Shown here: positions 1,972 through 36,007 of the stretch, piece by piece
Position numbering within the stretch: position 1 is the stretch's first letter
Layout of the letters: each line of letters starts with the position of its first letter
The notes under the pieces: generated by a model
Seen by the model: only the letters and a program-made list of their open reading frames with translations
The model's database searches: none
What the model was told of the DNA's origin: nothing
IMG/VR virus record: IMGVR_UViG_3300008113_000398
Span: 1-37,363 of that record
Direction: 5' to 3' (one strand)
Length of the DNA: 37,363 bases
DNA from: a virus
Position numbers and translations under genes: made by a program

Positions 1972-3720
1972 TCACCGTGTTATGAGTTGATGAATAATTT
2001 CCAACGCTTTGTGAACGCTGTCAGGCTTCTTGCCATTCACTTCACCACCAGACTTACGCTCCAGCACGGGATTGATGCCACGAACTTCCTGATTGGCTTC
2101 CTGCGTACGGCGCATCTGATCAGCCGCCCGGAAGTAATCAGCGGCACTCTCAGGATCACCCCAGTTAATCTTGCCATCTTGCACCAGCTCGCCGCCCATC
2201 GACTGGTAATCCTTGCCAGAGAATACACGGCCAAGAAGACCGCGTGATTCGGCAGCAGGCGTAGCTGCGCTTGGCTCAGAAGCCGCAGAGCCGCCAGCCG
2301 GAGCAGCGGCAGGAGCGCGGCGCATCATAGCCTTTTCCAGTGCCGCCTGAACGGAAGGATGAGGCATACGGCCCATGCCGCCATAGTCAGGGGCTTGCGG
2401 CGGTCCTTGCACTTCGCCAGTTGTTTGCTGCGGTGCAACAACTTCTGCATCGCCCATACGCGGCGGCGTTGGCAAATTGTCACCCATCGGCGCTTCTTCA
2501 CCGGGGCGACTAAAGGCGTAGTAGCCAGCACCCAGCGCACCCGCACCACCGATTGCAGCGGCACGCTTCATCCAATCGGGCTGAGCTGCACGGTTGGTTG
2601 TGACAGTGAATGCGTAGGCAGGGCTTTCACCTGCAAAGCTTTCGCCAACCAAACGCGGACCTGCATTTGGCACATCAGCACGATAGGTCGGACCAGTAGC
2701 AGGCAAGCCCGCACGTTCGCCTGCCGCCACCGGAGCCCCGCCAAAGTGGCGATCCATAATCGCTGCCAAATCACGGCCAGATGCAGGAACAAGTTCCTTG
2801 CCGGTAATGCGCTGCGCTTCTGAGCTAACATAACGCGGTGCAACGGCAGTGCCGGGGAACTGAGTTGTGTAGCCAAAACCAGCGGCAGCGTCTTGGTCGG
2901 CAGAGAAACGGCGCGGAGGTGGACGATTACGGGATGCAAATGCACCCATACCTTCGCCCTCAGCTTCCATCATTTGGCGTTCAAGGAAAGCTGCCTCCGC
3001 ATCACGTGCACGTTGCTGCGCTGCACGCAAAGCTTCTGCACCACCGCCTTCACCTTCCATGGTGGCAAGCTGTGTTTCACGGAACCCACGCTCAGCTGCA
3101 AGACGCTCCTGAGCAATACGGCGAGCTTGTGCAACAGCATCAGCCGTTGCCCCACCTTCACCTTCCAGCACTGCCAATTCATCTGGCACGGAACGCACAT
3201 CTGGACGAGGCGGCGGCGACATACGTTCCATCTGAGCGCCAGACGCATAGTTGGGCTTAAACGGAACTTGTTCAAACGGCCCAGCATTATAGCCGCTGCC
3301 TGAATATCCACCCGTGGCAGGGCGATCTACAACCAGACGATTGGTTGGTGTCAATGCTTCTTCAGCTGTCATGGCATTTCGGCCACGCATACCGCCAAGC
3401 ACGTTACGCGCTGTGCTAAGGACCTTGCCAGCCCCGCTAATGGCAGCTTCTGGAATGGCAAATGATGCCAAGGTTTCGGTGCGTGACATACGCGCTGCCA
3501 CGGCATCTGCGGTGCGACGAGCCGCATCTTCACTACCTGTGCGGCGCAGAGTTTCGTCATATGCACGCTGAATGGCGGCCTGCTTCATCTCACGATAAGG
3601 GGCCATCGTTTCATCGTAACGGCGGCGCACCTCTTCTTGCATAGCCATGGCTTCAGGATTGTCCCGCTCCGGAACGTACAAGTCCCCACGGCGTGCTGTA
3701 ATTGGAGCGCGTTCAGCCAT
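1972..3720 (-). CDS. Internal virion/ejection-type protein, 582 aa
   Basis: ATG at 3720 overlaps the portal stop (TGATG), with GGAG upstream. The protein is Ala/Arg/Glu-rich and low in recognisable folds. A predicted coiled-coil region around residues 175-265 contains three related segments beginning LEGEGG, MEGEGGG and AEGEGMG, each followed by Ala/Arg/Gln-rich helix. A short hydrophobic Gly/Ala segment (AAAIGGAGALGAGYYAF) lies near residue 395 and could cross a membrane. The C-terminus has ERKSGGEV followed by DSVHKALEIIHQLI, resembling the tail of the 796-aa protein at 29265-31655. Its place directly after portal fits a podovirus ejection or adaptor protein. No enzymatic motif is seen. Confidence 0.7.
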   Translation of the reverse strand: MAERAPITARRGDLYVPERDNPEAMAMQEEVRRRYDETMAPYREMKQAAIQRAYDETLRRTGSEDAARRTADAVAARMSRTETLASFAIPEAAISGAGKVLSTARNVLGGMRGRNAMTAEEALTPTNRLVVDRPATGGYSGSGYNAGPFEQVPFKPNYASGAQMERMSPPPRPDVRSVPDELAVLEGEGGATADAVAQARRIAQERLAAERGFRETQLATMEGEGGGAEALRAAQQRARDAEAAFLERQMMEAEGEGMGAFASRNRPPPRRFSADQDAAAGFGYTTQFPGTAVAPRYVSSEAQRITGKELVPASGRDLAAIMDRHFGGAPVAAGERAGLPATGPTYRADVPNAGPRLVGESFAGESPAYAFTVTTNRAAQPDWMKRAAAIGGAGALGAGYYAFSRPGEEAPMGDNLPTPPRMGDAEVVAPQQTTGEVQGPPQAPDYGGMGRMPHPSVQAALEKAMMRRAPAAAPAGGSAASEPSAATPAAESRGLLGRVFSGKDYQSMGGELVQDGKINWGDPESAADYFRAADQMRRTQEANQEVRGINPVLERKSGGEVNGKKPDSVHKALEIIHQLITR

Positions 3721-6056
3721 CACAGTTCTCCGGTCTTGCGGCCATCAAGAGTCTTTTCCGTAGACTCCAACCGCGCCAGCATTTCAGGTGTAAGCACCGA
3801 CTGAGCAATGTTCATGCCTTGCGGGTTACGGATCAGTTCTTCTGCCAACTTGACAGCCGCCAAACGTTCACGGCTTTCACGATCACGCTTGCGGTTAATG
3901 GCATCCAAAATGGCATCTTCTTGCTGTTGCTTTAGCTCGGCGGCACGAAGTTCCATCTCAGCCATTTGGCTAGGATCAGGCTCGCCAGTAAGGCCAGCCC
4001 TTTGGGCCTCCAACTGCAAACGCGCACGATCCAGTTCAATCTTGGCTTGGCTTTCCTGAGCGCGGGTCTGGCTATCCAGCATACGCGCCGCAGCATTGCT
4101 CTTTTCGTTTTCCATTTGAGCCATGGCCTGAAGAAGCTCAGGAGGCGGATTGGCCTGTGCCGACTTGGGCACCATGAACTGCGCGGGATTAGACCAACCA
4201 AGAGCCTGAAGTGCCGCTGTATCAACGGCAATCGGGTCATACAAAGACGGGCTTGCAGCCGCCAACTGTTTCAGCGCCAACACCTTCATCAGACGCTGGG
4301 TCTGTGATGCAGTGTTGGGGTCGGCCATAGGAACAAAGTAGTAGTTATCCAGAGCATCCGTGAAGGTCTTTTCGTCCCACGGAAAGGCTGGCTTGCGGTT
4401 CTTAATCCAGAAAGCATCTGGATGCTCACGGAAACATTCCGTCAGCAGTTCAAACTCTTCTGCCTGCGAAGCATGAAGGCGCTTGTGAACAGAGTTCAAA
4501 ACCTTCTGCGCTTGTTCAATCATGGCCAGCGTTGTACCGACCGGCGCGTCAGTCTTGCCTTCCATCACCATGGCTTCGCTGGTGCCGCCAACGCGCATAC
4601 CAGTGTCAGCCATTTGCGTGACAAGATTCATCAATGCGCCAGATGGCTCCTTATATGGCAATGGCATGATGGCTTGGGTCAGCGGCATACCATTTGTCTT
4701 CACCAACGCACCACCACCGGGAGGAACGCGGAAGATATTGGTGTTCTGACGCGCACCCGTGTCTGCCATAAGGAAGCCGGGGAAGTTGTTGTACATGCCA
4801 GCGTCAAGCAATTCACGCCAAGCAGCAGTGATGGCATTGGTCGTGTTGCCAAGGATGTGCAACAGGCCAAGGTCGTAAAAGCCCATGCCGGGGACAAAGG
4901 TGTACTTTACAAACCGCTTCTTGGCGGTCGGCAGTTCCTGATCGTCCTCATCATAGTTACGCACGATGGACAGGATTTGCTCAGATGAGACATCAATCGT
5001 GACGATGTATGGGATTTCCAAGCCAGAGATTTTGCCTTTGTGCTTATGTTCAAAGCCGGAAATGTCCAGCTCACAATAGCACTCGTAAATCTCACGATCA
5101 CGATCTTCCGGGTTTAGCGGCTCTTCAGAAATCCCTTGCTGTTCTTTCTCAGCACGCTGAATGGCATCCAATTGCTGCGGCTTTGGCGTTGACAATTCAA
5201 TGTCACGGTACACGCCCAAGATTTGCAGACGCTTCACCGTGTTTGGTGTCATCTGAATGCGATGAGTGATGCGCTTGGCATTTGTCAGATCAGTCGCAGA
5301 GTTATTTACGATCAGATCATTAGCATCAATCGTCTCAGAGACGGGTCGATTACGCAGCGGGCAGTAATAGACCTTCTTAAACGCCGTGCCAGAGAAACCA
5401 AGGCTAAACAACATGCGGTCGGTATCGGGATAATACTCAGTTGCTGTTGCTGTCAGATAATGGTTCAGGTCTTTCTGCAACGCATTGGCAAGTTGATCGT
5501 CTTGCAGCGTTGGATTGTTGTTGTCGTTGCGAATTTTAACCGGGCCATCGGTCGGAAGAAGCTCAGAACGTGCATTGGCTTGGAAGCGAAGCACTGCTTC
5601 AAGCAAAAGTGGGTGCCGAACCTTGCTCATACCTTCAACGGGAGCGCCGTCAGTCGCACCTTGCACGCCGGGAATTTCTAGTTTGATGCCAAGAAGCTTC
5701 AAACCTTGTGCGCGGTCTTCAATCCAGTCGTTTCGGCTGTCAATATCGTCACGAATGCCACGAAGAAGGTCTTGTGAGATGCTGGTCAGGTTGTTGTCAG
5801 CAATGTCATCAACAAGATTACGGAACCATTCGTCGCCGTCACGCTCTTTGCGGTTGTCATTGATGGGTTTGCCATCAAGTGACACGGTGATTGACCCGTC
5901 TGGGTGTTCAATTTCAAGAATTGCACCGTTTTCGTCGGCTTTTTCACGGTCAAGACCGTCTTCAATAATTTCAACGATGACTTCACCGTCCTGAAGATCG
6001 TCTTCAGAAGGCGAAACTTGCCTTAGATTTGGCATCAGGCCCGGTGTCATCGGCAT
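3720..6056 (-). CDS. Portal protein, 778 aa
   Basis: Large portal of the size seen in P22-like podoviruses (about 725 aa) rather than the smaller lambda/HK97 types. The N-terminal 120 residues are acidic. The core has features typical of this phage group: RHPLLLEAVLRFQANARSEL then LPTDGPVKI, a conserved LGFSGTAFKKVYY segment, and KRFVKYTFVPGMGFYDLGLLH. The C-terminal 200 residues are long charged helices rich in Gln/Glu/Arg/Ala, consistent with a helical barrel. It follows the 72-aa gene with a TAATG overlap and sits downstream of large terminase in the same direction, the standard order. It would form the dodecameric DNA channel at one capsid vertex. I assign it from length, motifs and context. 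Confidence 0.85.
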   Translation of the reverse strand: MPMTPGLMPNLRQVSPSEDDLQDGEVIVEIIEDGLDREKADENGAILEIEHPDGSITVSLDGKPINDNRKERDGDEWFRNLVDDIADNNLTSISQDLLRGIRDDIDSRNDWIEDRAQGLKLLGIKLEIPGVQGATDGAPVEGMSKVRHPLLLEAVLRFQANARSELLPTDGPVKIRNDNNNPTLQDDQLANALQKDLNHYLTATATEYYPDTDRMLFSLGFSGTAFKKVYYCPLRNRPVSETIDANDLIVNNSATDLTNAKRITHRIQMTPNTVKRLQILGVYRDIELSTPKPQQLDAIQRAEKEQQGISEEPLNPEDRDREIYECYCELDISGFEHKHKGKISGLEIPYIVTIDVSSEQILSIVRNYDEDDQELPTAKKRFVKYTFVPGMGFYDLGLLHILGNTTNAITAAWRELLDAGMYNNFPGFLMADTGARQNTNIFRVPPGGGALVKTNGMPLTQAIMPLPYKEPSGALMNLVTQMADTGMRVGGTSEAMVMEGKTDAPVGTTLAMIEQAQKVLNSVHKRLHASQAEEFELLTECFREHPDAFWIKNRKPAFPWDEKTFTDALDNYYFVPMADPNTASQTQRLMKVLALKQLAAASPSLYDPIAVDTAALQALGWSNPAQFMVPKSAQANPPPELLQAMAQMENEKSNAAARMLDSQTRAQESQAKIELDRARLQLEAQRAGLTGEPDPSQMAEMELRAAELKQQQEDAILDAINRKRDRESRERLAAVKLAEELIRNPQGMNIAQSVLTPEMLARLESTEKTLDGRKTGEL

Positions 6057-6287: not shown

Positions 6288-6363
6288 TGGTGCCCCCGGT
6301 AGGATTTGAACCCACGACCTTCGCTTTACAAAAGCGCTGCTCTGGCCTCTGAGCTACAAGGGC
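6288..6363 (-). tRNA. tRNA-Thr (anticodon UGU), CCA encoded
   Basis: Read on the minus strand, a full cloverleaf folds: acceptor GCCCTTG pairs with CGGGGGC (two G-U), D-arm GCTC/GAGC, anticodon stem GCGCT/AGCGA with loop TTTGTAA (anticodon TGT), and T-stem GTGGG/CCTAC with TTCAAAT loop. Discriminator A and CCA are encoded. The outer pair of the anticodon stem is a G-A mismatch. It lies between large terminase and the 72-aa gene in the same direction, so it must be cut out of the virion mRNA. UGU reads ACA threonine codons. Confidence 0.93.
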
Positions 6364-8931: not shown

Positions 8932-9005
8932 GCAGGCGTAGTTAAACGGTAGAACATCTGGCTTCCATCCAGAGGACAGGGGTTCGACTCCCCTCGCCTG
9001 CTCCA
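8932..9005 (+). tRNA. tRNA-Gly (anticodon UCC), CCA encoded
   Basis: Acceptor GCAGGCG pairs with CGCCTGC, followed by T and an encoded CCA. The anticodon stem TCTGG/CCAGA closes a CTTCCAT loop giving anticodon TCC. The T-arm AGGGG/CCCCT has loop TTCGACT. It reads GGA glycine codons; several virion proteins of this phage are very glycine-rich, so extra tRNA-Gly could help late translation. It begins 5 nt after the Tat-protein stop. Confidence 0.95.
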
Positions 9006-9191: not shown

Positions 9192-9386
9192 CTTGGCTCG
9201 GTACATAGGGGAGGTATAGGGGCTATAGGCCATAAAGGGACCCATAGTCTGTATATACCAAAAAGGGGGACCCATAAGGGGGACCCATAGGGGGGGTAGT
9301 GTTTCACGTGAAACATAGGGGAGGTAAGGGGACCCAATTACAAATTGCCAATACTGGGAGATTCCGTGGGAGGGGTTCAGGGACCC
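9164..9386. repeat. Cluster of six GGGACCC motifs flanking parS site 2
   Basis: The near-palindrome GGGACCC occurs at 9164, 9237, 9267, 9280, 9329 and 9380; three copies extend to GGGACCCATA. A 14-bp direct repeat ACATAGGGGAGGTA is at 9203-9216 and 9313-9326, the second copy starting inside parS site 2. No gene is present from 9006 to 9506. Location between the terminase subunit genes makes a packaging (pac/cos), partition or replication site plausible; this is inference. Confidence 0.55.
9300..9315. promoter_or_regulatory. parS: parS site 2 (ParB-binding palindrome)
   Basis: Second exact copy of TGTTTCACGTGAAACA, 275 bp from the first. Two perfect 16-mers in one 300-bp non-coding segment cannot be chance. 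Spaced parS pairs are typical nucleation sites for ParB-CTP clamps. Confidence 0.88.
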
Positions 9387-17769: not shown

Positions 17770-18003
17770 TCAGTCTGTCATTTTTGAAGCCTTAATTACG
17801 GCCTCACGGTTATTTTTCAGCCATTTAAGGGTCGCTAAAATAGCTTCCCAATATGGAATTCGCCTTTCTGCTTCATCCAAGACTTCTTGCGGCCTATCCC
17901 CTTGATCTACATACCTTTTTGTCAGCGCCGCAAATGCCTTATTATTTCGGATGGCATCTTCAACGTGCTTTATTTGTTGATCCAAGCTGATTTTATCTGC
18001 CAT
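17770..18003 (-). CDS. Hypothetical helical protein, 77 aa
   Basis: ATG at 18003 lies inside the end of the methyltransferase gene (11-nt overlap). The product is almost all charged helix: LDQQIKHVEDAIRNNKAFAAL, DEAERRIPYWEAILATLKWL. Small coiled phage proteins of this form are common and uncharacterised. It sits in the leftward early operon between methyltransferase and Cro-like gene. No enzymatic motif. Confidence 0.65.
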   Translation of the reverse strand: MADKISLDQQIKHVEDAIRNNKAFAALTKRYVDQGDRPQEVLDEAERRIPYWEAILATLKWLKNNREAVIKASKMTD

Positions 18004-18520
18004 GAAATACAGTCCCTTCCAGCGGGATTGTGTCTTTGAACAAATACCAACAACAATTATCCTTTCCAGCCATATCGCTGTCAGCAATCCACTTCACCCT
18101 GCCAACTGAAACTATAGTCCAACAGTACAAAAGATGATTGGCAGCCTGCTTGGTGTGCATCCAGTCAGCGTCGAAGAGCAACCAAGTGGGAGCTATAGCT
18201 GAGCAGCGTTCTATAATCTGGTGCAGCGGGGTCCGGTCCCACGGCGGGTTAGTGATGATGTACTTGGCCCCGTTCAGATCATCTTTGGTGATCCATGAGG
18301 CATCGTGACGCCGGATGCTGTCATGGCGGGGTTCAACGTCAAAAGCTGACACGCAGCGCAGCCCAGCGGCCTCCAAATGACGGACAAGATCACCCGCGCC
18401 AGCACAAGGCTCACAGAAGCTAGACCCCGGCAAAAGATGCGGAAGCAATGGCTTCACTGCTTCCATTGGCGTGGGGTAGAAGTCCAACTTCTCCCTGTCA
18501 AAGTCAGACCGCTTCCCCAT
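17993..18520 (-). CDS. Class I SAM-dependent N6-adenine methyltransferase-like protein, 175 aa
   Basis: Contains FYPTP (14-18), SAM-binding motif I FCEPCAGAGDL (35-45), an acidic strand end FDVEP for ribose binding, and the catalytic motif IV NPPW (91-94), as in phage and restriction N6-adenine methyltransferases. It is short: no separate target-recognition domain is seen, as in other small phage methyltransferases. Start has GGGGAG upstream. Possible roles are protecting phage DNA from restriction or altering methylation-dependent host gene control. Target sequence cannot be read from the protein. Confidence 0.82.
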   Translation of the reverse strand: MGKRSDFDREKLDFYPTPMEAVKPLLPHLLPGSSFCEPCAGAGDLVRHLEAAGLRCVSAFDVEPRHDSIRRHDASWITKDDLNGAKYIITNPPWDRTPLHQIIERCSAIAPTWLLFDADWMHTKQAANHLLYCWTIVSVGRVKWIADSDMAGKDNCCWYLFKDTIPLEGTVFHGR

Positions 18521-18857
18521 CTTTCTTCTCCCCTAGTGCAGCGCGAGCTTGCATAATGGACTTCCAACAACACCACGCATCGTAAGCATCGTTTGGCCCA
18601 TACCAATCCAGCGCTTCACACGGCTCTTGCGTCCAATGCGGATGATGTGTGCCAATAAGCTGAACTAAATGGTTGCCACCTACCATCACTGTCTCCAGCG
18701 CCGCTTCCAGCGTCTCAATCCGGTCGGCGGCTTCAATGCGCTGCAAAGCAAATCGCTCAATGATGGCTTGAAGGTTTGACACTAAGAACGGACCTTCTAA
18801 TTGATGCGCCTCTAAGTAGATTGTCTGACGCAGCCGCTTCACAAGATCGTCGGTCAC
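18504..18857 (-). CDS. Phage accessory protein, 117 aa
   Basis: Starts at a GTG (18857) overlapping the upstream stop and ends inside the methyltransferase start region. N-terminal DDLVKRLRQ and a following RIEAADRIETLEAALE helix are typical of small accessory proteins in many phages. The second half is Trp/His-rich (GTHHPHWTQEPCEALDWYGPNDAYDAWCCW). Function unknown. Part of the run of overlapping genes 19216-17770. Confidence 0.7.
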   Translation of the reverse strand: MTDDLVKRLRQTIYLEAHQLEGPFLVSNLQAIIERFALQRIEAADRIETLEAALETVMVGGNHLVQLIGTHHPHWTQEPCEALDWYGPNDAYDAWCCWKSIMQARAALGEKKDGEAV

Positions 18858-19216
18858 AGCCCTTCTCCCTCTTCAAAATCTAGATCAAGTTTGATGCAAG
18901 CGACACGGTTACGATGTGAGATGTTGTCAGCTTCTTCTTTTGTACGCCAGCCGCCGTGAATGACTTCGTTGTCATACACATTCAGCCACACCGTCCGCTT
19001 GTGGCGCGGCTTTACTTCGACAAGATCATCAACCGTGTTGACCATGCAGGATGTGGTCGTGAAATGCGTTTTGCCTTCTTCCGTCCATTTCATGCCGTGC
19101 CAAGTGCCATCTTGGAAGATAGCGCCGTGAACGGGGAATAGACCGCCAGCGTCAGTCGCGTATATGCGAACCTCTTGGCCTCCGCGTGTGCAGTAGGTTT
19201 TATCTTTGCTGATCAT
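18854..19216 (-). CDS. Phage accessory protein with beta-rich N-terminal module, 120 aa
   Basis: ATG at 19216 has TAGGAG upstream. The N-terminus (YCTRGGQEVRIYATDAGG then FPVHGAIFQDGTW) is a widespread phage module that usually starts small accessory proteins. The C-terminal half (TVWLNVYDNEVIHGGWRTKEEADN) resembles modules found in other phage accessory proteins. Function unknown. It is the first gene after the non-coding pentamer array, whose end is 24 nt upstream of this start. Confidence 0.72.
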   Translation of the reverse strand: MISKDKTYCTRGGQEVRIYATDAGGLFPVHGAIFQDGTWHGMKWTEEGKTHFTTTSCMVNTVDDLVEVKPRHKRTVWLNVYDNEVIHGGWRTKEEADNISHRNRVACIKLDLDFEEGEGL

Positions 19217-19239
19217 ATCATGCTCCTATTGTGTATTGA

Positions 19240-20002
19240 TTGCCTGCCTTACCTTGGCTCACCGCGCCATACGATACCTAGCCGCCCCCGACCTTGCCTG
19301 CCGGACCCTGACGAACTAGACCACTCCCCGCCAGACCTCACATTGCCATGCCTGCCACGCCATACCCGACAATACCGGAACCGAACCTACCGTACCCGAC
19401 CATGCCTGCCGCACCCTACCTATCCTTCCCGACCGTGACAGACCACGCCTGCCAAACCTTTCCCAACCGTCCGAGCCTTGCATAGCCACGCCTGCCGTAC
19501 CAATCCAAACCGGGACGCACCCGACCCCCCATACCTCACCTCGCCTGCCAAACCGCCCATACCTCACCCGTCCGCGCCGTCCTTGCCTGACCCAACCTGC
19601 CATACCAATCCCTACCAGCCCTCACCTGACCTTGACTTGCCTGCCTTAACTGACCAGAACTTGCCATGGCCTAACAAGCCTAACCATACCTGCCCTGCCT
19701 TAACGAAACCTACTCAGCCCCAGCCAACCATACCTGCCTTAACACACCTCACCTCCCAGACCCGACCTAACCGCACCACACCTGCCGTAACAAACCAATC
19801 CGCAACCTTCCCGAACGTGCCTAGCCTGACCTGCCGCGCAGAACCGCACCCCACCAGACCCAATCAAACCCTGCCGTGCCTGAACGCACCTGCCTTGACA
19901 CAACGCGCCAGAACGAACCGTGACAGACCTCGCCTCACCTGCCCTGCCCCGACAAATTCCACCGTAGCTCACCGCGCCTTGCCTGCCGCGCCTAACCGGG
20001 CC
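19240..20002. repeat. Non-coding array of degenerate pentamers punctuated by 16 TGCC tetramers
   Basis: On the plus strand the segment parses into pentamers of the form NNRCC (for example TTACC, TCACC, GCGCC, ATACC), about two thirds exact in units I parsed. On the leftward mRNA strand this is GGYNN. The pentamer register is reset by an extra TGCC, making CCTGCC at 19243, 19297, 19351, 19405, 19448, 19491, 19544, 19596, 19640, 19689, 19733, 19781, 19830, 19889, 19938 and 19982. The intervals are 54, 54, 54, 43, 43, 53, 52, 44, 49, 44, 48, 49, 59, 49 and 44 nt; ten of fifteen equal 5n+4. The N positions vary freely. The array begins 10 nt after the stop of the 150-aa gene and ends 24 nt before the next start, so it fills the intergenic gap of the operon. 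It does not encode protein: a period of 5 is not a codon repeat. Confidence 0.9.
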
Positions 20003-20011
20003 AAGAGGAGG

Positions 20012-20464
20012 TTAGATCACCTCGTCAATCGCAGCGACCAGATTGGCAAACTCTTCATAGGCCGCATAACGCTGCTTCCAAATCCTGATCTCACGCTTGG
20101 CGCGGTCCAAGATTTCTTCACGCATATCCACATTGGTCATTGCCACTTCAATCGGTACATACTGTGGCTCTTCCAATGTCACATGAACAAACGCACGGGT
20201 TTCAGTATCAACTGGTGCGTCTGCATACTCAGCGACAACGATAGAACCCATCAACTTACGCGCTTGCCACAAACGATAGTTGTCAGCTGCTTTGTCATCC
20301 TGCCATTCAAAGCATGGATGCAATGGTGAACGTGGATTAGCTGCATCATCAACAACTGCGCGGGGAGTCAGCTCACCATTTGCAATGCGGATTGTATGCA
20401 AACGCTCCGCAGCAATCTGTGCGCCAACAGGAAAGCGTGAGTCTCGTCGCCATTCATAAATCAT
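20012..20464 (-). CDS. Conserved phage protein of unknown function, 150 aa
   Basis: ATG at 20464 (MIYEW) is preferred because GGGG lies 5-8 nt upstream; ATG at 20470 is an alternative. The protein begins YEWRRDSRFPVGAQIAAERL, then LTPRAVVDDAANPRSPLHPCFEW and DDKAADNYRLWQARKLMGSI, and ends in charged helix. Proteins with this plan occur in many tailed phages next to homologues of the upstream 210-aa protein. No enzymatic motif is known to me. It directly precedes the pentamer array in the transcript. Confidence 0.78.
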   Translation of the reverse strand: MIYEWRRDSRFPVGAQIAAERLHTIRIANGELTPRAVVDDAANPRSPLHPCFEWQDDKAADNYRLWQARKLMGSIVVAEYADAPVDTETRAFVHVTLEEPQYVPIEVAMTNVDMREEILDRAKREIRIWKQRYAAYEEFANLVAAIDEVI

Positions 20465-20482
20465 GTTCATCCCCATGAGTGT

Positions 20483-20506
20483 GGGGCGACACCGAAGCAT
20501 CGCCCC
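20483..20506 (-). promoter_or_regulatory. UUCG-capped intercistronic hairpin
   Basis: On the minus strand GGGGCGATGC closes on GTGTCGCCCC around TTCG: ten pairs (two G-U) capped by the very stable C(UUCG)G tetraloop. It starts 8 nt after the 210-aa stop and ends 19 nt before the 150-aa start. No T tract follows, so it is more likely an mRNA stabiliser or translational control element than a terminator. Confidence 0.65.
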
Positions 20507-20513
20507 GTTGTTA

Positions 20514-21146
20514 TTACGCTGCCTTCTGGCGGCTATTACGAATGTCAGTGATGCGCTTCATCTCTTCTGCGCTGGCAACATGGAAGCGACCATATTGGCC
20601 GTCTTTCTCAGGACGCCATTCACCAACACCAACTGCGAAGCCCGCAGTCTGCATGAGGTTCAGGATTTGCTCAGCGGACATAACATTCGCATTGTATTTG
20701 ACAGCAATCGTTGTGAACCAATTACGGAACTCACCACGATAACGAATGTCAGCTGTACCCATGGCAATGCGAACCATGTCCTCACGCATTGTCGGTTCAT
20801 CACCTTCAATCACTGCGTATTCACCATCAACGTGAAACGCCTGTCTTGCAGCGACTTTCGTCATGCTGCCGATAGACGTACAAGCCGTGACAGCCGCAGC
20901 CTTAAAGCCGATGATTGGAAAACCATACGTGCCATCTTCCAGCACATACAATGACTCCTTGAAGTCACGTTCCGGGTCTTTGGCTTCTTTGCCAGCTGTA
21001 GCTTTCTTCATTTGTTTATCAAGCATTTGCTTCTTCGCTTTTTCTGACCAGCGGTGAACAATGAGTGGTGTATCGCCCACCAATGTCACATGAACAGTTT
21101 CGATCTTCAGCGGTGGTAGTGTCACCGTAGATGTAGAAGCAGCCAT
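20514..21146 (-). CDS. Conserved phage protein of unknown function, 210 aa
   Basis: Conserved features: VTLVGDTPLIVHRWSEKAKK, QMKKATAGKEAKDPERDF, YGFPIIGFKAAAV, MREDMVRIAMGTADIRYRGEF and GVGEWRPEKDGQYGRFHV. These recur in many tailed-phage early regions from memory, always without assigned function. The alternating strands, a basic helix and a glycine-rich GVGEW loop are compatible with nucleic-acid binding, possibly an RRM/RAMP-like fold, but that is only inference. Start 21146 has AGGGGAA upstream. Its gene, the 150-aa gene and the pentamer array are consecutive in one transcript. Confidence 0.82.
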   Translation of the reverse strand: MAASTSTVTLPPLKIETVHVTLVGDTPLIVHRWSEKAKKQMLDKQMKKATAGKEAKDPERDFKESLYVLEDGTYGFPIIGFKAAAVTACTSIGSMTKVAARQAFHVDGEYAVIEGDEPTMREDMVRIAMGTADIRYRGEFRNWFTTIAVKYNANVMSAEQILNLMQTAGFAVGVGEWRPEKDGQYGRFHVASAEEMKRITDIRNSRQKAA

Positions 21147-29264: not shown

Positions 29265-31655
29265 TTAGCCCTCAAGATGACGGTTAGCAATCTCCAGAGC
29301 CTGAGCGATCTTGCTATCGTCAGTGTTCAGGAGAGTCTTTGTCTCATTATTGATGTTCCGCTTGGAACGATCAACCATTGCCACAAGCTTATCAGACACA
29401 CGGCCACCGCTGGCACGCTCAGGGCGGACCAGTTTGCCAGCACCCTCATCATCAGCTTCAGCCACTTTGACGGCGACATAACGGCCAAGGCGCTGTTCCA
29501 GTTCCTTCAGGGCATTTGCAGTGCTGGCCTGCTTACGCGCGGCCTCCAAGATCATCTGTTGCTGGCGCGGATCATCCGAAATAGCCATGCTCAGAAGTTC
29601 ATTCATACGGCGTCGATTACCAATATAAGATGCCAACCCAACTGGGACACCAACAGCAAGCCCTGCCATACCCATCTTTGTCTGCGCCATTTGTCCAATC
29701 ATGGGCGCAGCCTGCATAATACCATACGACCCAGCGCCAATTGTTGCAGCCTGACCAAACGGCCCAAATCCCTTCAGAATTTGCGCTGCCTTACCCTCAC
29801 GCGCAGCTACAGCCTCTGTCATTGCCATGATGCGGTTGATGCGGAGTGAGTTGTCAATGTCAGCAAAACGATCCCGGCCAAGAATGGCACGAAGGGGGTC
29901 CATGACTGCTTTGTCACCCTTCTGAAAAAGTGCAGTGGCTTCAGCCGGGTTTTCTTTTACCCAAGCACCAATGCCTTGCTGAAAAGCTGTCTGTTCTTCC
30001 GGGGTGAACTTATTGGCATACTGGAACTTCTGGCGGCTCATGTCACCAAGGCTAGGGCCACGGCCCATCTTGGCCATGTCCATGAAGTTTGCACCGGCAT
30101 CAAAGGCATTGTTGCCCTTGATAAAACGACCGGCGCCAGTGACCGCGTCTTCATACGGCTTGAACAGCGTATAAAGGTCTTTAGCAAATGTTTCAGCCGA
30201 TGCACCAGTGCTTGAAGCCGCTGCGTTACCGTCTCTTTTTTGTTGCTTAGCGATATTAGTCAACCCACGCTTAACAAGGTCCAAAAATTCAAGACTTGCA
30301 CCACGCATACCTTGTTGCAGCTGCGGATTTCCGTTGGCATCTAGAACCAATGTCCCGTCTGGATTATGGATAAACGGGCTTTGGATTGGGCCACGACTGG
30401 ATACAGAAGACCATTTCTGGCCTTCATTTCTTGCCCATTCAATAGCCTGTTGTCCTTCTTTAGAAGAGAAGGTTTGTTGAATGTTAGGTGTCCAGATTTG
30501 TTGTGCGCTTGGGTCCCGAAAAGCCCTATCATACGCTGGTCTATTTTGTTGACGAGCCAAATCATCAGACGCTTGACGAATGGCAAATGCATCAATCGGC
30601 TGGCCGAATGCATCATCAATGTCCTGATGAATGCGTTGGGTATTGCCCTGTACACGATCACGAAGGAAGCGGTTGATGTCTGCAAAACGCTGATCGCCTT
30701 CAAAAGCCGCGCCAGCGCGTCCAACTTGTTCCTTTGCACCATGGATGTCGATAGGACGGACTGGACGGCCTTCCAGAACAGCCCTTTCATACTCATCCAT
30801 GGTCATGCCCGGAGTGCGGGATGTCGATACCTTGGATGCGCCTTCGGCAATCTTACGAGCCGCAGCTGCTTCCGGGTTCCACAAAGCCTGCAAAGCATTG
30901 CCAATCGGTTTGGCACCGGCAGCGACACCACGAACTAAACCGGTGACAACAGCCGGAGCAGCGGCACCAAATGCCGCGCCAGTGCCAACACGCTCAGCAG
31001 TTTCACCAGCCGTTTCACCGGGTTTAGCTTCTGACAGCGCGGAAAGACCGCCAAAAGTAGCAGCTTCAGCCGACTGACCAATCAATGGCGCAGCCTTTTG
31101 CGTGAAGGACGGCAGAATTTTAGACCCGGCTTTGATGCCTTCTGTCACACCCTTGGCAATGCCAAGAGACACATTGGCAGGGATCGTGGCAACGCCAGTT
31201 GTAATCTCACCGACCATGCGGCCAAAAGGAGAAGCCTTTGCGCGCTCTTCTCTTAGGGCCTGCATCTCAGCCAAGATATTGGCGCGGCGCTCATCATATG
31301 TTTCACCCTTGCCAGAGCCAGAGCTGGCCAGCGCAGAGGCGTACATACCCTTCATAAGAGGGCTGATAAACGGAACATCACCCGGCAGATAATTCATATA
31401 TGCAGGGCTGGAACCAACTTGCTTACGCGCTTCAGGGCGAGCCGCTTCTACACGCGCCTGCCAGCCAGCAAGACCGGGGTCTTCCTGCTTAGGAGGACGG
31501 TACTGCCCAATGAAAACATCTTCGTCCGCTGGTGCTTGTGTGCGAGCCGGAGAGGGAGCCTGTTCAACTTTCTTAGGTACAGATGGCGGGACCCCACGTG
31601 CCACGAACACATCGGGATCGTTCATGTCAATCTGGGGGGTCTGTTTCTCGTCCAT
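29265..31655 (-). CDS. Internal virion/ejection protein, 796 aa
   Basis: Long, Ala/Gln/Arg-rich, mostly helical, with hydrophobic stretches: one around 185-240 (AAFGAAAPAVVTGLVRGVAA) and one around 650-690 (MGMAGLAVGVPVGLASYIG), which could insert in the cell envelope. The first 60 residues have two related DVF(V/I)ARG/GQY segments. The C-terminal 50 residues carry RASGGRVSDKLVAMVDRSKR and DDSKIAQALEIANRHLEG, a module also seen at the ends of other virion-cluster proteins here. Order S74/lysozyme protein, this protein, tail fibre suggests a podovirus ejection complex. Confidence 0.75.
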   Translation of the reverse strand: MDEKQTPQIDMNDPDVFVARGVPPSVPKKVEQAPSPARTQAPADEDVFIGQYRPPKQEDPGLAGWQARVEAARPEARKQVGSSPAYMNYLPGDVPFISPLMKGMYASALASSGSGKGETYDERRANILAEMQALREERAKASPFGRMVGEITTGVATIPANVSLGIAKGVTEGIKAGSKILPSFTQKAAPLIGQSAEAATFGGLSALSEAKPGETAGETAERVGTGAAFGAAAPAVVTGLVRGVAAGAKPIGNALQALWNPEAAAARKIAEGASKVSTSRTPGMTMDEYERAVLEGRPVRPIDIHGAKEQVGRAGAAFEGDQRFADINRFLRDRVQGNTQRIHQDIDDAFGQPIDAFAIRQASDDLARQQNRPAYDRAFRDPSAQQIWTPNIQQTFSSKEGQQAIEWARNEGQKWSSVSSRGPIQSPFIHNPDGTLVLDANGNPQLQQGMRGASLEFLDLVKRGLTNIAKQQKRDGNAAASSTGASAETFAKDLYTLFKPYEDAVTGAGRFIKGNNAFDAGANFMDMAKMGRGPSLGDMSRQKFQYANKFTPEEQTAFQQGIGAWVKENPAEATALFQKGDKAVMDPLRAILGRDRFADIDNSLRINRIMAMTEAVAAREGKAAQILKGFGPFGQAATIGAGSYGIMQAAPMIGQMAQTKMGMAGLAVGVPVGLASYIGNRRRMNELLSMAISDDPRQQQMILEAARKQASTANALKELEQRLGRYVAVKVAEADDEGAGKLVRPERASGGRVSDKLVAMVDRSKRNINNETKTLLNTDDSKIAQALEIANRHLEG

Positions 31656-34600
31656 TACTGCCTGACCCTCTTCATGATCGGGAAGCCATCTTCAGTTTTG
31701 CCAAGATATTGCAGCTTCATTGGCTTGCCAGTTTCATCGACCTGACCAATGCCCATGCCCGGTTCAATGATGTAACTGCGCCCAATCTTAGCCTCAGTTG
31801 CATCAAACTTTTTATCCTTCAGAGGCACATCGCCAATTACCGCAAAGTCATCGTAAAGCTTGTCTTTGGTTTCACGAATGAAGTTTGCATTGTCCTTGAT
31901 CCACTGAGAAGTGAACTTAGACCTGTCAAACTGGTATGGGTTCTTGGCACGTGCTTCAACCGCATCATTGAAGAACTTGTCCTGAATGAGCAAGTTAGCT
32001 TCCATCTGCGAGATGATGGAGCGGTTCGTACCGGGTTCAACATCAGGGTCCGGGTTAGCCTTTTGTTGACCAACCATTTCAGCCACGCGAATTTGTCCAC
32101 CAATCTGTTTGATGTTTTCAAACACGGAAATCATAGCTTCCTTAGCGAACCTTTGCATAGCTTCTGGCTTGTTGCGGCTTGCGTCAACAACAGAATTAAG
32201 CACCTTCTCATCCACGCCAAGAGCGCGGAGTTTGGTAGCAAATTCGTTGATTTTTGTTGAAAATGCACCAGTTCGGTACAAATTCAGCAAGTCTTTCATG
32301 TTGCGAATGCTTTGCTGTGCAGCAATACGAGCATTTGCCTCATCAGCCCGCTCACCAAACCACTTGTTGTTTTCAGTACGGTTTGCTTCCATCATCCTGT
32401 ATGGAAGATCGACAGCCTTGTCATAAAGCGCGTTGATCTGTTCCCTCAGCTGATTGGCACGCAGGCGAGCTTGTTGGGCACGCTGGCCGTAAACCTTGGC
32501 GGGCAAATCTTCCAACCGGTCAGCCAAACCGCTGGTTTCTTCGTATTGACGTTCCAGCTTACGAACATCGTCCGATCCTTTATCAAGACCAGCGCGGCGA
32601 TAGGCTTCATCACCACCACGGCGGAACTCATCAATGAGCATCTGCTTGGAGATTGGAGGCGATTCAATTGCCTGCTCTGCCGGGATTGGCTTGGCAGGAA
32701 CAAGGCCGCCAGATGTCGGCTGCGCTGCCGGAGCCGCAGCGGGAGGCTGGGCCTGTGCTGTTGTAGCAGGGGGCTGCGCTGCCGGAGGCTGTTCATCTGG
32801 CTTAGCAGCCGGAGGTGGCAACTGTGCAGGCTGTTGCTGACGCTCTGCCTGCGCTTCCAGCGGAGCCCTTGGTGCCTTCGGAGGCTCAGGCATTGAAATG
32901 CCAAGCAAGCGCGGGCTTACCTGTGCTTCCTTTGCCATATTGAAGGCAATTGCCGAATACTCCTGCGGGCTCATATAACGCAGAGTCTTGGTGTCAAACA
33001 TGGCAGGCTTGCCAGCTCTGTCACCATATTCCGGTTCATTCGGGAAAATATCTGGCACAAAGCGTTCATTCATCATCGTACGAAGATCACGGGCTGTTTC
33101 AATCTCATACTTTTGCTGAGCCTGATAACCAGCGACACCGCCAAGCACGCCTTCACCCAATGCCCCGCCAAAGCTGGGATTCCGAGATGCCAGCATGGCA
33201 CCAAGGAACGAAAGTGTTGGCACCCAGAACTTGCCAGTGGTTGGCACCCCTTCAGGAAGCAGCGACGAACCAATATCGCCAAGACCAGCCTGACGGGCCG
33301 GAACATTGTCATAGGTGATCGGAGCGCGTTCTTCCCGCCTTGGGGGAATGTCCTGCGGAGGACGCGGAACTGCAAGGCCACGACCTTCATCGGATGTCGG
33401 AGCATAAGCCCTAGCACCACCAAGTCCGAACAGGCCCTGATTACGAGCAACGGTCCACGGGCTGGCACCCTTCTGGGCAATATACTGCGAGGAGAAATCT
33501 GCAATATCTGCCTGATTGGTGGGATCATTCAGGAATGCGATTTTCTGAGCCGGGGTAAACGTTTTAGCCAATTCAGGATGACGCTCTTGGAAGTAAACAT
33601 CTCCAAGACCTGAATTGGGATAACGGCGTGACAATCCACCAACATGCAGTTGGAAGATGCTTCCAGATGAACCTTCATCACCAGAAATCGGTCGCATACC
33701 GCTTTCGCCTTGTGCAAGACGAATGGCATGATCAACGTCGATGCCGTGCTTTTTGGCAGCTTCAGTTACGATATTTCGGTAGTCCGGCTGTTCGGAACGC
33801 AGCGCATCACGAATAGCAAGCCCAGCCTGCGGAGGAGCTTCAGGGGCACGTTCAGGCATTGCAGGCATTTCTTCTACAAGGGCTTCGCCCCCTTCAAGAT
33901 AGCCACGGCGCGGAACAAGACCACCAGAAGCGCGGGGAACCGCAGACTCTGTTGCCTTGTCATAATTCAGCATCAGGTAGCCGTTGTCATTCATGCCAAC
34001 TGCTTCTGGCTTACGTTCCAGAACTTCCTGAGCCATAAGACCGAGCTGGGTTTTCCCATCACCCATGTCATAGGCATAGATGTTCTGACCGTCATAGGTC
34101 AGACCAACTGGGCGAATATTGTCCTTCAGGCGTTCATCAGAAAGCATCGAAAAGAGGGCTGTTCCCATGGAATACAAGCCCTTGCCAGCTGTATACAGGC
34201 CAGCTGCATCTTTGGCAGCGCCAAGAATACCGCCGCCGCCAGCACCACCACCGCCAGCACCATCAGCTTTCAGCAATGTGGGATTCTTGCTCTCATCCTG
34301 ATTTTCAAGCGTGTCATCAATATACCCCTCCGACAAATCCTTAGACTCGTAGGGGTTAATTGTCTTCATAGCTCCGGGGGAGCCGCCACTGACATAGCCA
34401 TTACGGCCAACAATCAGACCGCCGCGCTTGGCGAGCAGATTGCCAAATTCGCTGAAATCGTCTGGCTTCGGAATGTCAGCCTCTGCCACCTTCAATCCAG
34501 CTTCAGCGGGTGCCGGAGACGCATCAGCCACTTTGGCAGGGGCCGTTGTTGAAGTAGCAGCATCTTTTGTATAGCCGGTCGCACTGCCCTCAGCAGTCGG

Positions 34601-36007
34601 CTTGTTCCACCATTCTTTAATGTCAGTGCCAGCCTGCTTCAGGCCCTTGCCTGTTTCCCATGCGCCAGACACTGCCTTGGCAGCGCCAAGTGCCTGTTCC
34701 GCGCCAGAAGGAGCCTGCCTAGGTGCCGGACCAGCTGTCACAAGCTTTGGCGTGGGAAGCGCCGCTTTAGGGACATAGCTTTTGCCGCCCATAGGCGACC
34801 CGCCAGACTCCTGACCATACAAGCCAGCGCCACCAAAAGGCCCAAACATCTGCTGCTGAGCCTTTAGAATAGCATTTAAGTCGGTTGAATCACTGATGAG
34901 GCCACCACCACCGCCAACAGCATAGCCACCACGATAGAAGCCCTCGCCAGCACGGGACGGGACAACACCGCCGCCTTCAGATTCCGTGGCTTTCTCATAG
35001 TCCACCGTCTTGTACAGGTTGCCATCCGCAGCCGGGGCCAAGCCAACGGCCTCTGGCTTCACACGTTCAACGTCCTGAGCCATAAGGCCGATCTGGGTCT
35101 TATCGTCTCCGTTATACTTATAGCTATAGATCGGCAGCCCATCATCGGTTTGACCAATGCGTTCAACATCATGCTTCAAGCGACGATCTGAGAAGAAGCC
35201 GCTGGGCTGCTGCGTTGTCGTTGTGCTGCCAGAAAGCGCACCAGTACCCATGGCAATGTTTGCCAAGAACTGAGCAACTTGGAACGGATAGCCACGCTCC
35301 TGTAAGAACTGCTGATAACGTGCTGTCAAATCAGCCTGCTGGGTCTGCTGCTCCAGCGTACCAGCGCCAATCTGAGCCTGAGCGCCCTGCAAGGCAGCCT
35401 GCTGAGCGCCAGTTCCGAGACCAGCAATTTGCTGACCTGCCTGCATTTGACGGGCAAGATCGGAAGCAACAACACCTTGCTGCCCCATCGCCGTTTGAAC
35501 GGCCTGTTGATAGCCTTGCTGATAAATTGGAGCCAATGCCTGAGCCGTGGCAAGGTTTTGCTGACGCATCAAATTGGCGCGTTCAATACCTGAACGACTG
35601 CCGCCAAATGCGCCTGCACGAATGGCATTAGCCTGTTGCTGTGCCAATTCCTGACCCTGTTGCTGGCGCAAAGCCTGATAGGTCGGCGCAGCAACTGATT
35701 CAGTATAGGGGCTTTCATAATAGCCAATTTGGCCACGTGTAAGCGGACCAACCGCTTGCGCCCCGCCAAGAGTAAGCCCGGCACCAGCACCAAAGTAAGG
35801 CTGAGCCAGCTGAGACGATTCATTAGTGGCCTGAATGCCTGCCTGCTGCGTGGGAGTAAGATTAGCAACGAATTGGCCGCCATATTGCTGGAATGGCTGC
35901 TTGGCAACTTCTTCAGCACGTGCGTTAACGGCGCTGTAACGCGCCATTACCTCCGGCGGGATTGTCACCGTTTGAGTTGTTGTACCGCCCTTGCCACCGC
36001 CGCCCAT
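31655..36007 (-). CDS. Multidomain virion protein with two S74 chaperone-protease domains and a lysozyme-like domain, 1450 aa
   Basis: The N-terminal 260 residues are Gln/Ala-rich helices. A first Peptidase_S74-type domain is at about 270-342 (FFSDRRLKHDV, S273; then IGLMAQDVERVKPEAVGL), and a second at about 620-687 (MLSDERLKDNI, S623; LGLMAQEVLERKPEAVGM). Each is followed by a Gly-rich linker with GG motifs. Residues about 740-865 resemble a transglycosylase/lysozyme-like domain: AIRLAQGESGMRP (E768 candidate) and GSSGSIFQLHVGGLS. The rest is Pro/Gln linker and long helices. It probably is an ejected peptidoglycan-opening protein. S74 domains usually sit at the C-terminus of fibres and self-cleave; two internal copies are unusual. 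Confidence 0.82.
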   Translation of the reverse strand: MGGGGKGGTTTQTVTIPPEVMARYSAVNARAEEVAKQPFQQYGGQFVANLTPTQQAGIQATNESSQLAQPYFGAGAGLTLGGAQAVGPLTRGQIGYYESPYTESVAAPTYQALRQQQGQELAQQQANAIRAGAFGGSRSGIERANLMRQQNLATAQALAPIYQQGYQQAVQTAMGQQGVVASDLARQMQAGQQIAGLGTGAQQAALQGAQAQIGAGTLEQQTQQADLTARYQQFLQERGYPFQVAQFLANIAMGTGALSGSTTTTQQPSGFFSDRRLKHDVERIGQTDDGLPIYSYKYNGDDKTQIGLMAQDVERVKPEAVGLAPAADGNLYKTVDYEKATESEGGGVVPSRAGEGFYRGGYAVGGGGGLISDSTDLNAILKAQQQMFGPFGGAGLYGQESGGSPMGGKSYVPKAALPTPKLVTAGPAPRQAPSGAEQALGAAKAVSGAWETGKGLKQAGTDIKEWWNKPTAEGSATGYTKDAATSTTAPAKVADASPAPAEAGLKVAEADIPKPDDFSEFGNLLAKRGGLIVGRNGYVSGGSPGAMKTINPYESKDLSEGYIDDTLENQDESKNPTLLKADGAGGGGAGGGGILGAAKDAAGLYTAGKGLYSMGTALFSMLSDERLKDNIRPVGLTYDGQNIYAYDMGDGKTQLGLMAQEVLERKPEAVGMNDNGYLMLNYDKATESAVPRASGGLVPRRGYLEGGEALVEEMPAMPERAPEAPPQAGLAIRDALRSEQPDYRNIVTEAAKKHGIDVDHAIRLAQGESGMRPISGDEGSSGSIFQLHVGGLSRRYPNSGLGDVYFQERHPELAKTFTPAQKIAFLNDPTNQADIADFSSQYIAQKGASPWTVARNQGLFGLGGARAYAPTSDEGRGLAVPRPPQDIPPRREERAPITYDNVPARQAGLGDIGSSLLPEGVPTTGKFWVPTLSFLGAMLASRNPSFGGALGEGVLGGVAGYQAQQKYEIETARDLRTMMNERFVPDIFPNEPEYGDRAGKPAMFDTKTLRYMSPQEYSAIAFNMAKEAQVSPRLLGISMPEPPKAPRAPLEAQAERQQQPAQLPPPAAKPDEQPPAAQPPATTAQAQPPAAAPAAQPTSGGLVPAKPIPAEQAIESPPISKQMLIDEFRRGGDEAYRRAGLDKGSDDVRKLERQYEETSGLADRLEDLPAKVYGQRAQQARLRANQLREQINALYDKAVDLPYRMMEANRTENNKWFGERADEANARIAAQQSIRNMKDLLNLYRTGAFSTKINEFATKLRALGVDEKVLNSVVDASRNKPEAMQRFAKEAMISVFENIKQIGGQIRVAEMVGQQKANPDPDVEPGTNRSIISQMEANLLIQDKFFNDAVEARAKNPYQFDRSKFTSQWIKDNANFIRETKDKLYDDFAVIGDVPLKDKKFDATEAKIGRSYIIEPGMGIGQVDETGKPMKLQYLGKTEDGFPIMKRVRQ

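Follow-up and report, generated by a model that had tools for sequence, protein, structure and literature searches.

The locus examined here raises a simple question: what is an array of five-base GGYNN units, interrupted at intervals by a four-base unit, doing between two genes of a phage (Table 1)? An earlier note on the window (i.e., the whole 37,363-nt stretch of viral DNA that was analyzed) had recorded no described function for repeats of this kind. That statement has been overtaken by a 2026 preprint, our sole source on the subject, which describes VIPR (Viral Interference Programmable Repeat) systems (PMC13142463). In that account, Vipr is a phage-encoded RAMP protein that binds RNAs of alternating GGY and NN elements (vrRNAs), and DNA is recognized via the NN dinucleotides with one base skipped between them. 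Binding of Vipr to vrRNA, and target DNA binding and repression by the RNP, are reported there as shown for two systems only, those of SUSP1 and P. fulva (PMC13142463).

We conclude with high confidence that the array is a bank of guide RNAs (vrRNAs) of a phage-encoded VIPR system. Systems of this kind were already known; new here are the grammar by which the array is delimited and the natural targets. The array and its grammar, the homology and fold of Vipr, the conservation of the trio of vipr, partner and array, and the matches for two guides were computed for this phage, whereas for the binding of RNA, for repression and for the rule of the skipped base we rely on the preprint (PMC13142463).

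Table 1. Positions, strand and content of the vipr locus in the window. Guide rows include the GGCA that goes with the guide; dinucleotides are the NN elements in order, those of Y-less units in brackets. L003 and L004 are related loci.
Feature	Position	Strand	Content	Remark
vipr	20514..21146	-	210-aa RAMP-family protein, predicted RNA-binding	glycine-rich loop GVGEWRPEKDGQYGRF
candidate vap (VIPR-associated protein)	20012..20500	-	162 aa	phrog_15946
vrRNA array	19240..20002	-	135 GGYNN-type pentamers, 6 Y-less GGNN units, 16 GGCA tetramers	
guide S1 + GGCA	19940..19983	-	AA GC GA AC GG TT GG AG	
guide S2 + GGCA	19891..19939	-	GA GA CT AC TC CT GC GT AA	
guide S3 + GGCA	19832..19890	-	GC CA AC AG TT TG CT GG GC TC GC	no credible target found
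guide S4 + GGCA	19783..19831	-	CA TA AC CG AG GC TT TT AC	
guide S5 + GGCA	19735..19782	-	GT GC TA CG CT (GGGA = ga) GA GT AA	predicted target: HTH_17 gene motif VVYRLEDVE
guide S6 + GGCA	19691..19734	-	AT TG GG TG AG TC AA AG	
guide S7 + GGCA	19642..19690	-	AT TA TT AG AT AA CT CA AA	
guide S8 + GGCA	19598..19641	-	AA AA CA GA CT AG TT AT	same guide in L003
guide S9 + GGCA	19546..19597	-	TG CA AA (ac) GC CG GA AT (gc) TT	orthologous guide in L003
guide S10 + GGCA	19493..19545	-	GA GA AT (gg) CG GC CC TT TT AC	
guide S11 + GGCA	19450..19492	-	GT TA AA TC (ac) TG AA TT	orthologues in L003 and L004
guide S12 + GGCA	19407..19449	-	GT CT AC CG (aa) TA AG GC	NN identical in L003
guide S13 + GGCA	19353..19406	-	AT CG AC AG CG CC AT CG AT GT	NN identical in L003
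guide S14 + GGCA	19299..19352	-	AT AA GA CT GG GT CT TC AG CC	orthologues in L003 and L004
guide S15 + GGCA	19245..19298	-	AA CG GC TA AT AT GC GA AA AA = codons KRAYIIADNK	predicted target: ParB_N / N6_N4_Mtase DNA-methylase gene

Architecture and borders of the array

The array contains 15 full guides, S1 to S15, with a stub of three units at its 5' end and a single unit at its 3' end. All 16 tetramers counted in the earlier note (TGCC, i.e., GGCA on the minus strand) were recovered; for the pentamers, the parse gave 135, and the note about 145. The intervals from one GGCA to the next are, in order, 44, 49, 59, 49, 48, 44, 49, 44, 52, 53, 43, 43, 54, 54 and 54 nt; in this recomputed list ten of fifteen equal 5n+4 and all fall between 43 and 59 nt, as had been claimed. 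The remaining five (48, 52, 53, 43 and 43) depart from the rule because each holds one or two irregular four-base units of the form GGRN (GGGA, GGAC, GGGC, GGGG, GGAC and GGAA). These irregular tetramers are pentamers that have lost the Y base and kept the NN.

The period-5 signal reported previously held up against shuffled sequence, which fell far short: the array parse scored 418, compared with a mean of 16.6 and a maximum of 32.2 in 200 dinucleotide shuffles, and identity at lag 5 was 0.479 within the array and 0.309 ± 0.017 in dinucleotide shuffles. Within the window, the array is the strongest period-5 stretch. In the direction of the transcript, it begins 9 nt past the stop codon of the candidate vap gene and ends 23 nt ahead of the start of the gene at 18854-19216, in agreement with the borders drawn earlier. 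Tandem Repeats Finder called no array at these positions, Rfam gave no family match up to E = 1 within 18800-20600, and searches with PADLOC and NCBIfam yielded insignificant matches only. A nucleotide search of the whole region against phage genomes returned nothing useful, and sites found in a scan for sigma-70 promoters were no more numerous than in shuffles.

Other features were noted elsewhere in the window. An SU10-type portal (3720-6056) points to a podovirus-like phage. Near the terminase gene there are two tRNA genes, one for Thr(tgt) at 6288-6363 (minus strand) and one for Gly(tcc) at 8932-9005 (plus strand), and a 13-bp direct repeat, AAGGGGGACCCAT, is present in 2.5 copies at 9263-9295, a region without a clear gene. 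The minus strand encodes a 1450-aa protein with a Peptidase_S74 (endosialidase-type chaperone) domain at 31655-36007 and, at 17993-18520, a 175-aa piece aligning with no more than the central part (positions 201-364 of 458) of the phage DNA methyltransferase phrog_799; it is possibly a split or truncated methylase.

The Vipr homologue, its partner and their relatives

Because the VIPR systems of the preprint pair GGY/NN RNAs with Vipr (PMC13142463), a vipr gene was predicted near the array. As expected, one was found two genes upstream of it, in the same operon. The preprint describes Vipr as a protein of about 20 kDa with an RRM core, a G-loop and a thumb, and the vrRNA as 9-16 GGY/NN repeats near vipr (PMC13142463). 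In the window, 15 segments of 8-11 GGY/NN units lie 0.5-1.3 kb downstream of vipr, the lower end (8 units) being one unit below the published range. The protein matched SUSP1 Vipr, the structure of which is known (PDB 36pp), with E = 2.8e-6 in phmmer, and a profile of 30 Vipr homologues matched the same entry over nearly its full length (profile positions 14-190; E = 2.8e-13). When an AlphaFold model (pLDDT 84.6) was searched with Foldseek, the top matches were RAMPs of the Csm3/Cas7 type, i.e., CRISPR backbone proteins (E = 8.5e-6), and VIA-align of the model with RAMPs gave Z values of about 10. The G-loop motif is kept across 35 aligned sequences. In length, SUSP1 match, fold and G-loop, the protein agrees with a RAMP-type Vipr; it is a Vipr homologue with a predicted Cas7/Csm3-like RAMP fold.

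The gene between vipr and the array is a candidate vap accessory gene. Its product matched phrog_15946 with E = 6e-24, and of the 121 vipr loci (the window being one of them), 107 have a homologue adjoining vipr; homologues also occur as gp50 of Mycobacterium phage Donkeykong and gp41 of Gordonia phage UmaThurman. A confident model of the protein (pLDDT 90.8) found no fold match in the PDB by Foldseek at E ≤ 0.001. Sequence searches gave weak matches only, the best being an ssDNA-binding protein at E = 0.035, an assignment on which, at that E value, we do not rely. There was no similarity to the gene adjoining vipr in the type-II-like phage VpaE1.

Relatives of Vipr were taken from viral contigs, sequenced phages and bacterial genomes. 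A total of 131 arrays was found in 110 sequences, nearly all on the same strand as vipr. In the 121 vipr-bearing sequences examined (window included), the commonest gene order was vipr-vap-array. The arrays occur in alphaproteobacterial, clostridial, actinobacterial and Bacteroidetes prophages, in Mycobacterium and Gordonia phages, and in viral contigs. GGCA accounts for 667 of their 853 four-base units, and 257 of 328 GGCA intervals equal 5n+4, mostly at 44-64 nt. Variability, measured as entropy, is lower in the units adjoining GGCA (3.3 and 3.6 bits) than further in (3.8-3.9 bits). Relatives differ from one another by whole guides and by one-nucleotide changes in the framework (e.g., GGGA versus GTTGA). 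In orthologous guides, 7.5% of NN and 9.7% of framework positions had changed, a difference that was not significant (p = 0.19), and the idea that NN evolves more slowly than the framework was dropped on that account.

Unannotated GGCA-punctuated GGYNN arrays were also observed beside vipr-like hypothetical genes in Mycobacterium phage Donkeykong (L058, 2516-2865), Gordonia phage UmaThurman (L059, 3593-3912) and Gordonia phage ODay (L060, 3625-3790).

Predicted guide targets and the GGCA tetramer

Guides were decoded by reading the NN units as xNN, i.e., with one target base skipped between dinucleotides. Among the fetched loci, 20 guides gave strong target matches (E < 0.1) at a skip of one base, compared with 7, 2 and 7 guides at skips of 0, 2 and 3, and with 9 shuffled guides. 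These figures come from an earlier scan, because a later and larger one included loci that had been fetched with S15 and S13 themselves.

S15 had at least 120 exact (20/20) matches in the viral collection, and all 120 of those sampled were in one codon phase, the skipped base being the wobble base. A sample target gene contained the Pfam domains ParB_N and N6_N4_Mtase, and in three relatives (L004, L007 and L008) different guides tile the KRAYIIADNK region in other registers. Read in codons, S5 gives V-A-Y-R-L-(D/E)-(D/E)-V-(K/N). Its ortholog in the related locus L006 matches an HTH_17 gene (GGRVVYRLEDVEAYE) perfectly and in the wobble frame, and the combined S5/L006 pattern gave at least 120 matches, 119 of the 120 sampled lying in the HTH_17 gene family. 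The window's own S5 reached 17/18 at best (three contigs) and 16/18 in most other contigs of the family, two bases differing from most of the sampled family matches. GTTGA in L006 corresponds to the unit GGGA in S5, and because the target requires GA at that place, this alignment indicates that the Y-less unit is still read in pairing. As in the published VIPR systems, targets were thus matched by a one-nucleotide skip that falls mostly at the codon wobble position (skip 1 above controls; S15; the S5/L006 family). Convincing targets are predicted for only two of the fifteen guides, i.e., the ParB-methylase gene for S15 and the HTH_17 gene for S5.

Exact scans of the viral collection with S14, S9 and the core of S3 (18-20-base patterns) gave no match, and in 385 alphaproteobacterial genomes S3, S14 and S10 each had at most one match with two mismatches. 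Those of S3 and S10 look like chance, each being on the strand opposite a long ORF, which by our reading resembles an ATP synthase subunit for S3 and a sensor kinase for S10. S13 matched a single capsid-like ORF exactly at two sites, which were not counted as targets because they lie off the wobble register. None of the guides of the window had a good match in its own genome (best 15/20).

Guides of other phages matched vipr genes themselves, at EDMVRVGM, DYEACFYRT and MGTADLRYR; 5 guides did so at E < 0.01, compared with 0-1 in controls, so that the statistics are modest. Such matches are in line with the VIPR-against-VIPR targeting of the preprint (PMC13142463). A guide in a Sphingomonas soli prophage (L072, 11069-11166; GA GA AT GT CG GT GG AT = EDMVRVGM) has 16/16 matches to vipr in 36-37 other loci and is, from this pairing, an apparent anti-VIPR guide.

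Because each segment from one GGCA to the next, with its 8-11 dinucleotides, acts like a single guide, GGCA looks like a guide delimiter, and may mark processing; this is the most economical reading of the sequence. With both S15 and S5, the matched part was the segment between two GGCA tetramers, and several guide-target mismatches fall in terminal units. Treating the tetramer itself as a pairing unit (CA) suited one S15 flank (codon Q) and not the other flanks looked at, and was rejected. Alternatively, the guides might be longer and overlapping (staggered), crossing GGCA, which would then be a framework variant or a capping site. Some VIPR types do have staggered arrays with overlapping vrRNAs, according to the preprint (PMC13142463), the SUSP1 vrRNAs (about 100 nt) correspond to two segments of the window array, and GGCA might be a GG+CA unit without Y, as with the irregular tetramers. 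However, the S15 and S5 matches stop at GGCA, the codons flanking the target not fitting the neighboring units when judged by eye, and GGCA is invariant at 16 of 16 places in the window, whereas the pentamer frameworks carry a base other than G at 25 of 133 second positions. We regard overlapping guides as rather unlikely. There is an even chance, in our estimation, that the array follows a tail-less multi-guide grammar distinct from that of tailed arrays, in which the invariant GGCA would delimit or process the guides of one long transcript, each phage would carry about fifteen reprogrammable guides against different rivals, and loss of Y would be tolerated, the unit still being read.

Two other explanations dispense with guides altogether. 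One plus-strand frame has a single stop over the 763 nt, and an open frame of 283 aa, rich in Pro, Thr and Ala, runs from 19478 to 20329, as might be expected of low-complexity coding sequence. However, a period of five with four-base phase shifts does not agree with a reading in codons, the remaining five frames carry 6-13 stops, relatives vary by whole guides and by the single-nucleotide framework changes described above, and arrays of differing content occur in 110 sequences; a coding function can hardly be right. The spacing of GG and the strand asymmetry would also allow an element acting as DNA (a binding array with GG at every half-turn, a G-quadruplex, an R-loop region, or a packaging or replication signal), but it would then be unexpected that the NN positions spell out, in the wobble register, protein motifs of target genes, or that the array travels with a RAMP gene, and we consider such an element very improbable. 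Among the suggestions of the earlier note was a phage RNA that is not translated and whose GGN3 units are read by a filament of protein, with a footprint of 5 nt. In essence, this suggestion is supported by the Vipr/RAMP gene in the same operon and by the published binding of such RNAs to Vipr (PMC13142463); as primary functions, G-quadruplexes, R-loops and phasing on the DNA helix are not needed, and nothing supports them. What that description of the array had missed is the use of NN as a target code and of the tetramers as guide delimiters.

For the array as a bank of vrRNAs we propose the following scheme. The vipr-vap-array operon would be read leftwards, yielding a non-coding transcript in which about fifteen guides, of 8-11 GGY/NN units apiece, follow one another with GGCA at their borders. 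By analogy with the published systems, Vipr would coat each guide, a single subunit covering each pentamer, with GGY held and NN exposed. The dinucleotides would pair with DNA, with one base skipped between them; in the S15 targets that were sampled, the skipped base is the wobble base of the codon. Silencing of genes of rival phages or prophages, including at least ParB-methylase and HTH_17 regulator-like genes, would be the likely result, and we infer that the phage uses its guides against competitors.

Relation to known systems

The locus ties an unannotated non-coding array to an RNA-guided system that was described only in 2026 and has been proposed to be ancestral to the RAMPs of CRISPR. 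Its code can be read from sequence alone, leading from guides to short peptide motifs of rival phage genes. Three features of the locus, namely the conserved GGCA delimiter, the units without Y and the partner protein conserved alongside, offer an entry to how a multi-guide VIPR array is cut and read, and to which phages compete in nature.

In common with VIPR type II of Escherichia phage SUSP1 (PMC13142463; PDB 36pp), the window has a phage-borne homologue of the Vipr RAMP, non-coding GGY/NN tandem repeats near vipr, and guides that match foreign genes by a one-nucleotide skip at the codon wobble position. It differs in having many guides head-to-tail in one array, separated by GGCA and without tails; in VpaE1, a phage of the SUSP1 kind, and in LESphi2, guides occur singly, carry tails and lack GGCA, and the main text of the preprint does not mention a GGCA delimiter (PMC13142463). 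The conserved, structured 3' tail of the SUSP1 vrRNAs is absent from the GGCA-punctuated arrays, in which one guide follows the next with no more than GGCA in between, and because of this lack of a 3' tail the system was not filed as type II.

With the backbones of Class 1 CRISPR-Cas systems (Cas7/Csm3 RAMP filaments), the window shares a predicted RAMP fold with a G-loop and, if the periodicity given in the preprint (PMC13142463) applies, an RNA filament with periodically disrupted pairing. However, it has no CRISPR repeats, its guides are set in a pentamer framework and not as spacers between long repeats, and its code is non-contiguous; no cas1 or cas2 was noticed among the genes examined. 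The Donkeykong, UmaThurman and ODay loci share with the window a vipr-like gene, a GGCA-punctuated GGYNN array and, in all three, a homologue of the partner. They differ in being annotated only as hypothetical proteins and in the content of their guides, and in Donkeykong, unlike in the window, the array lies upstream of vipr.
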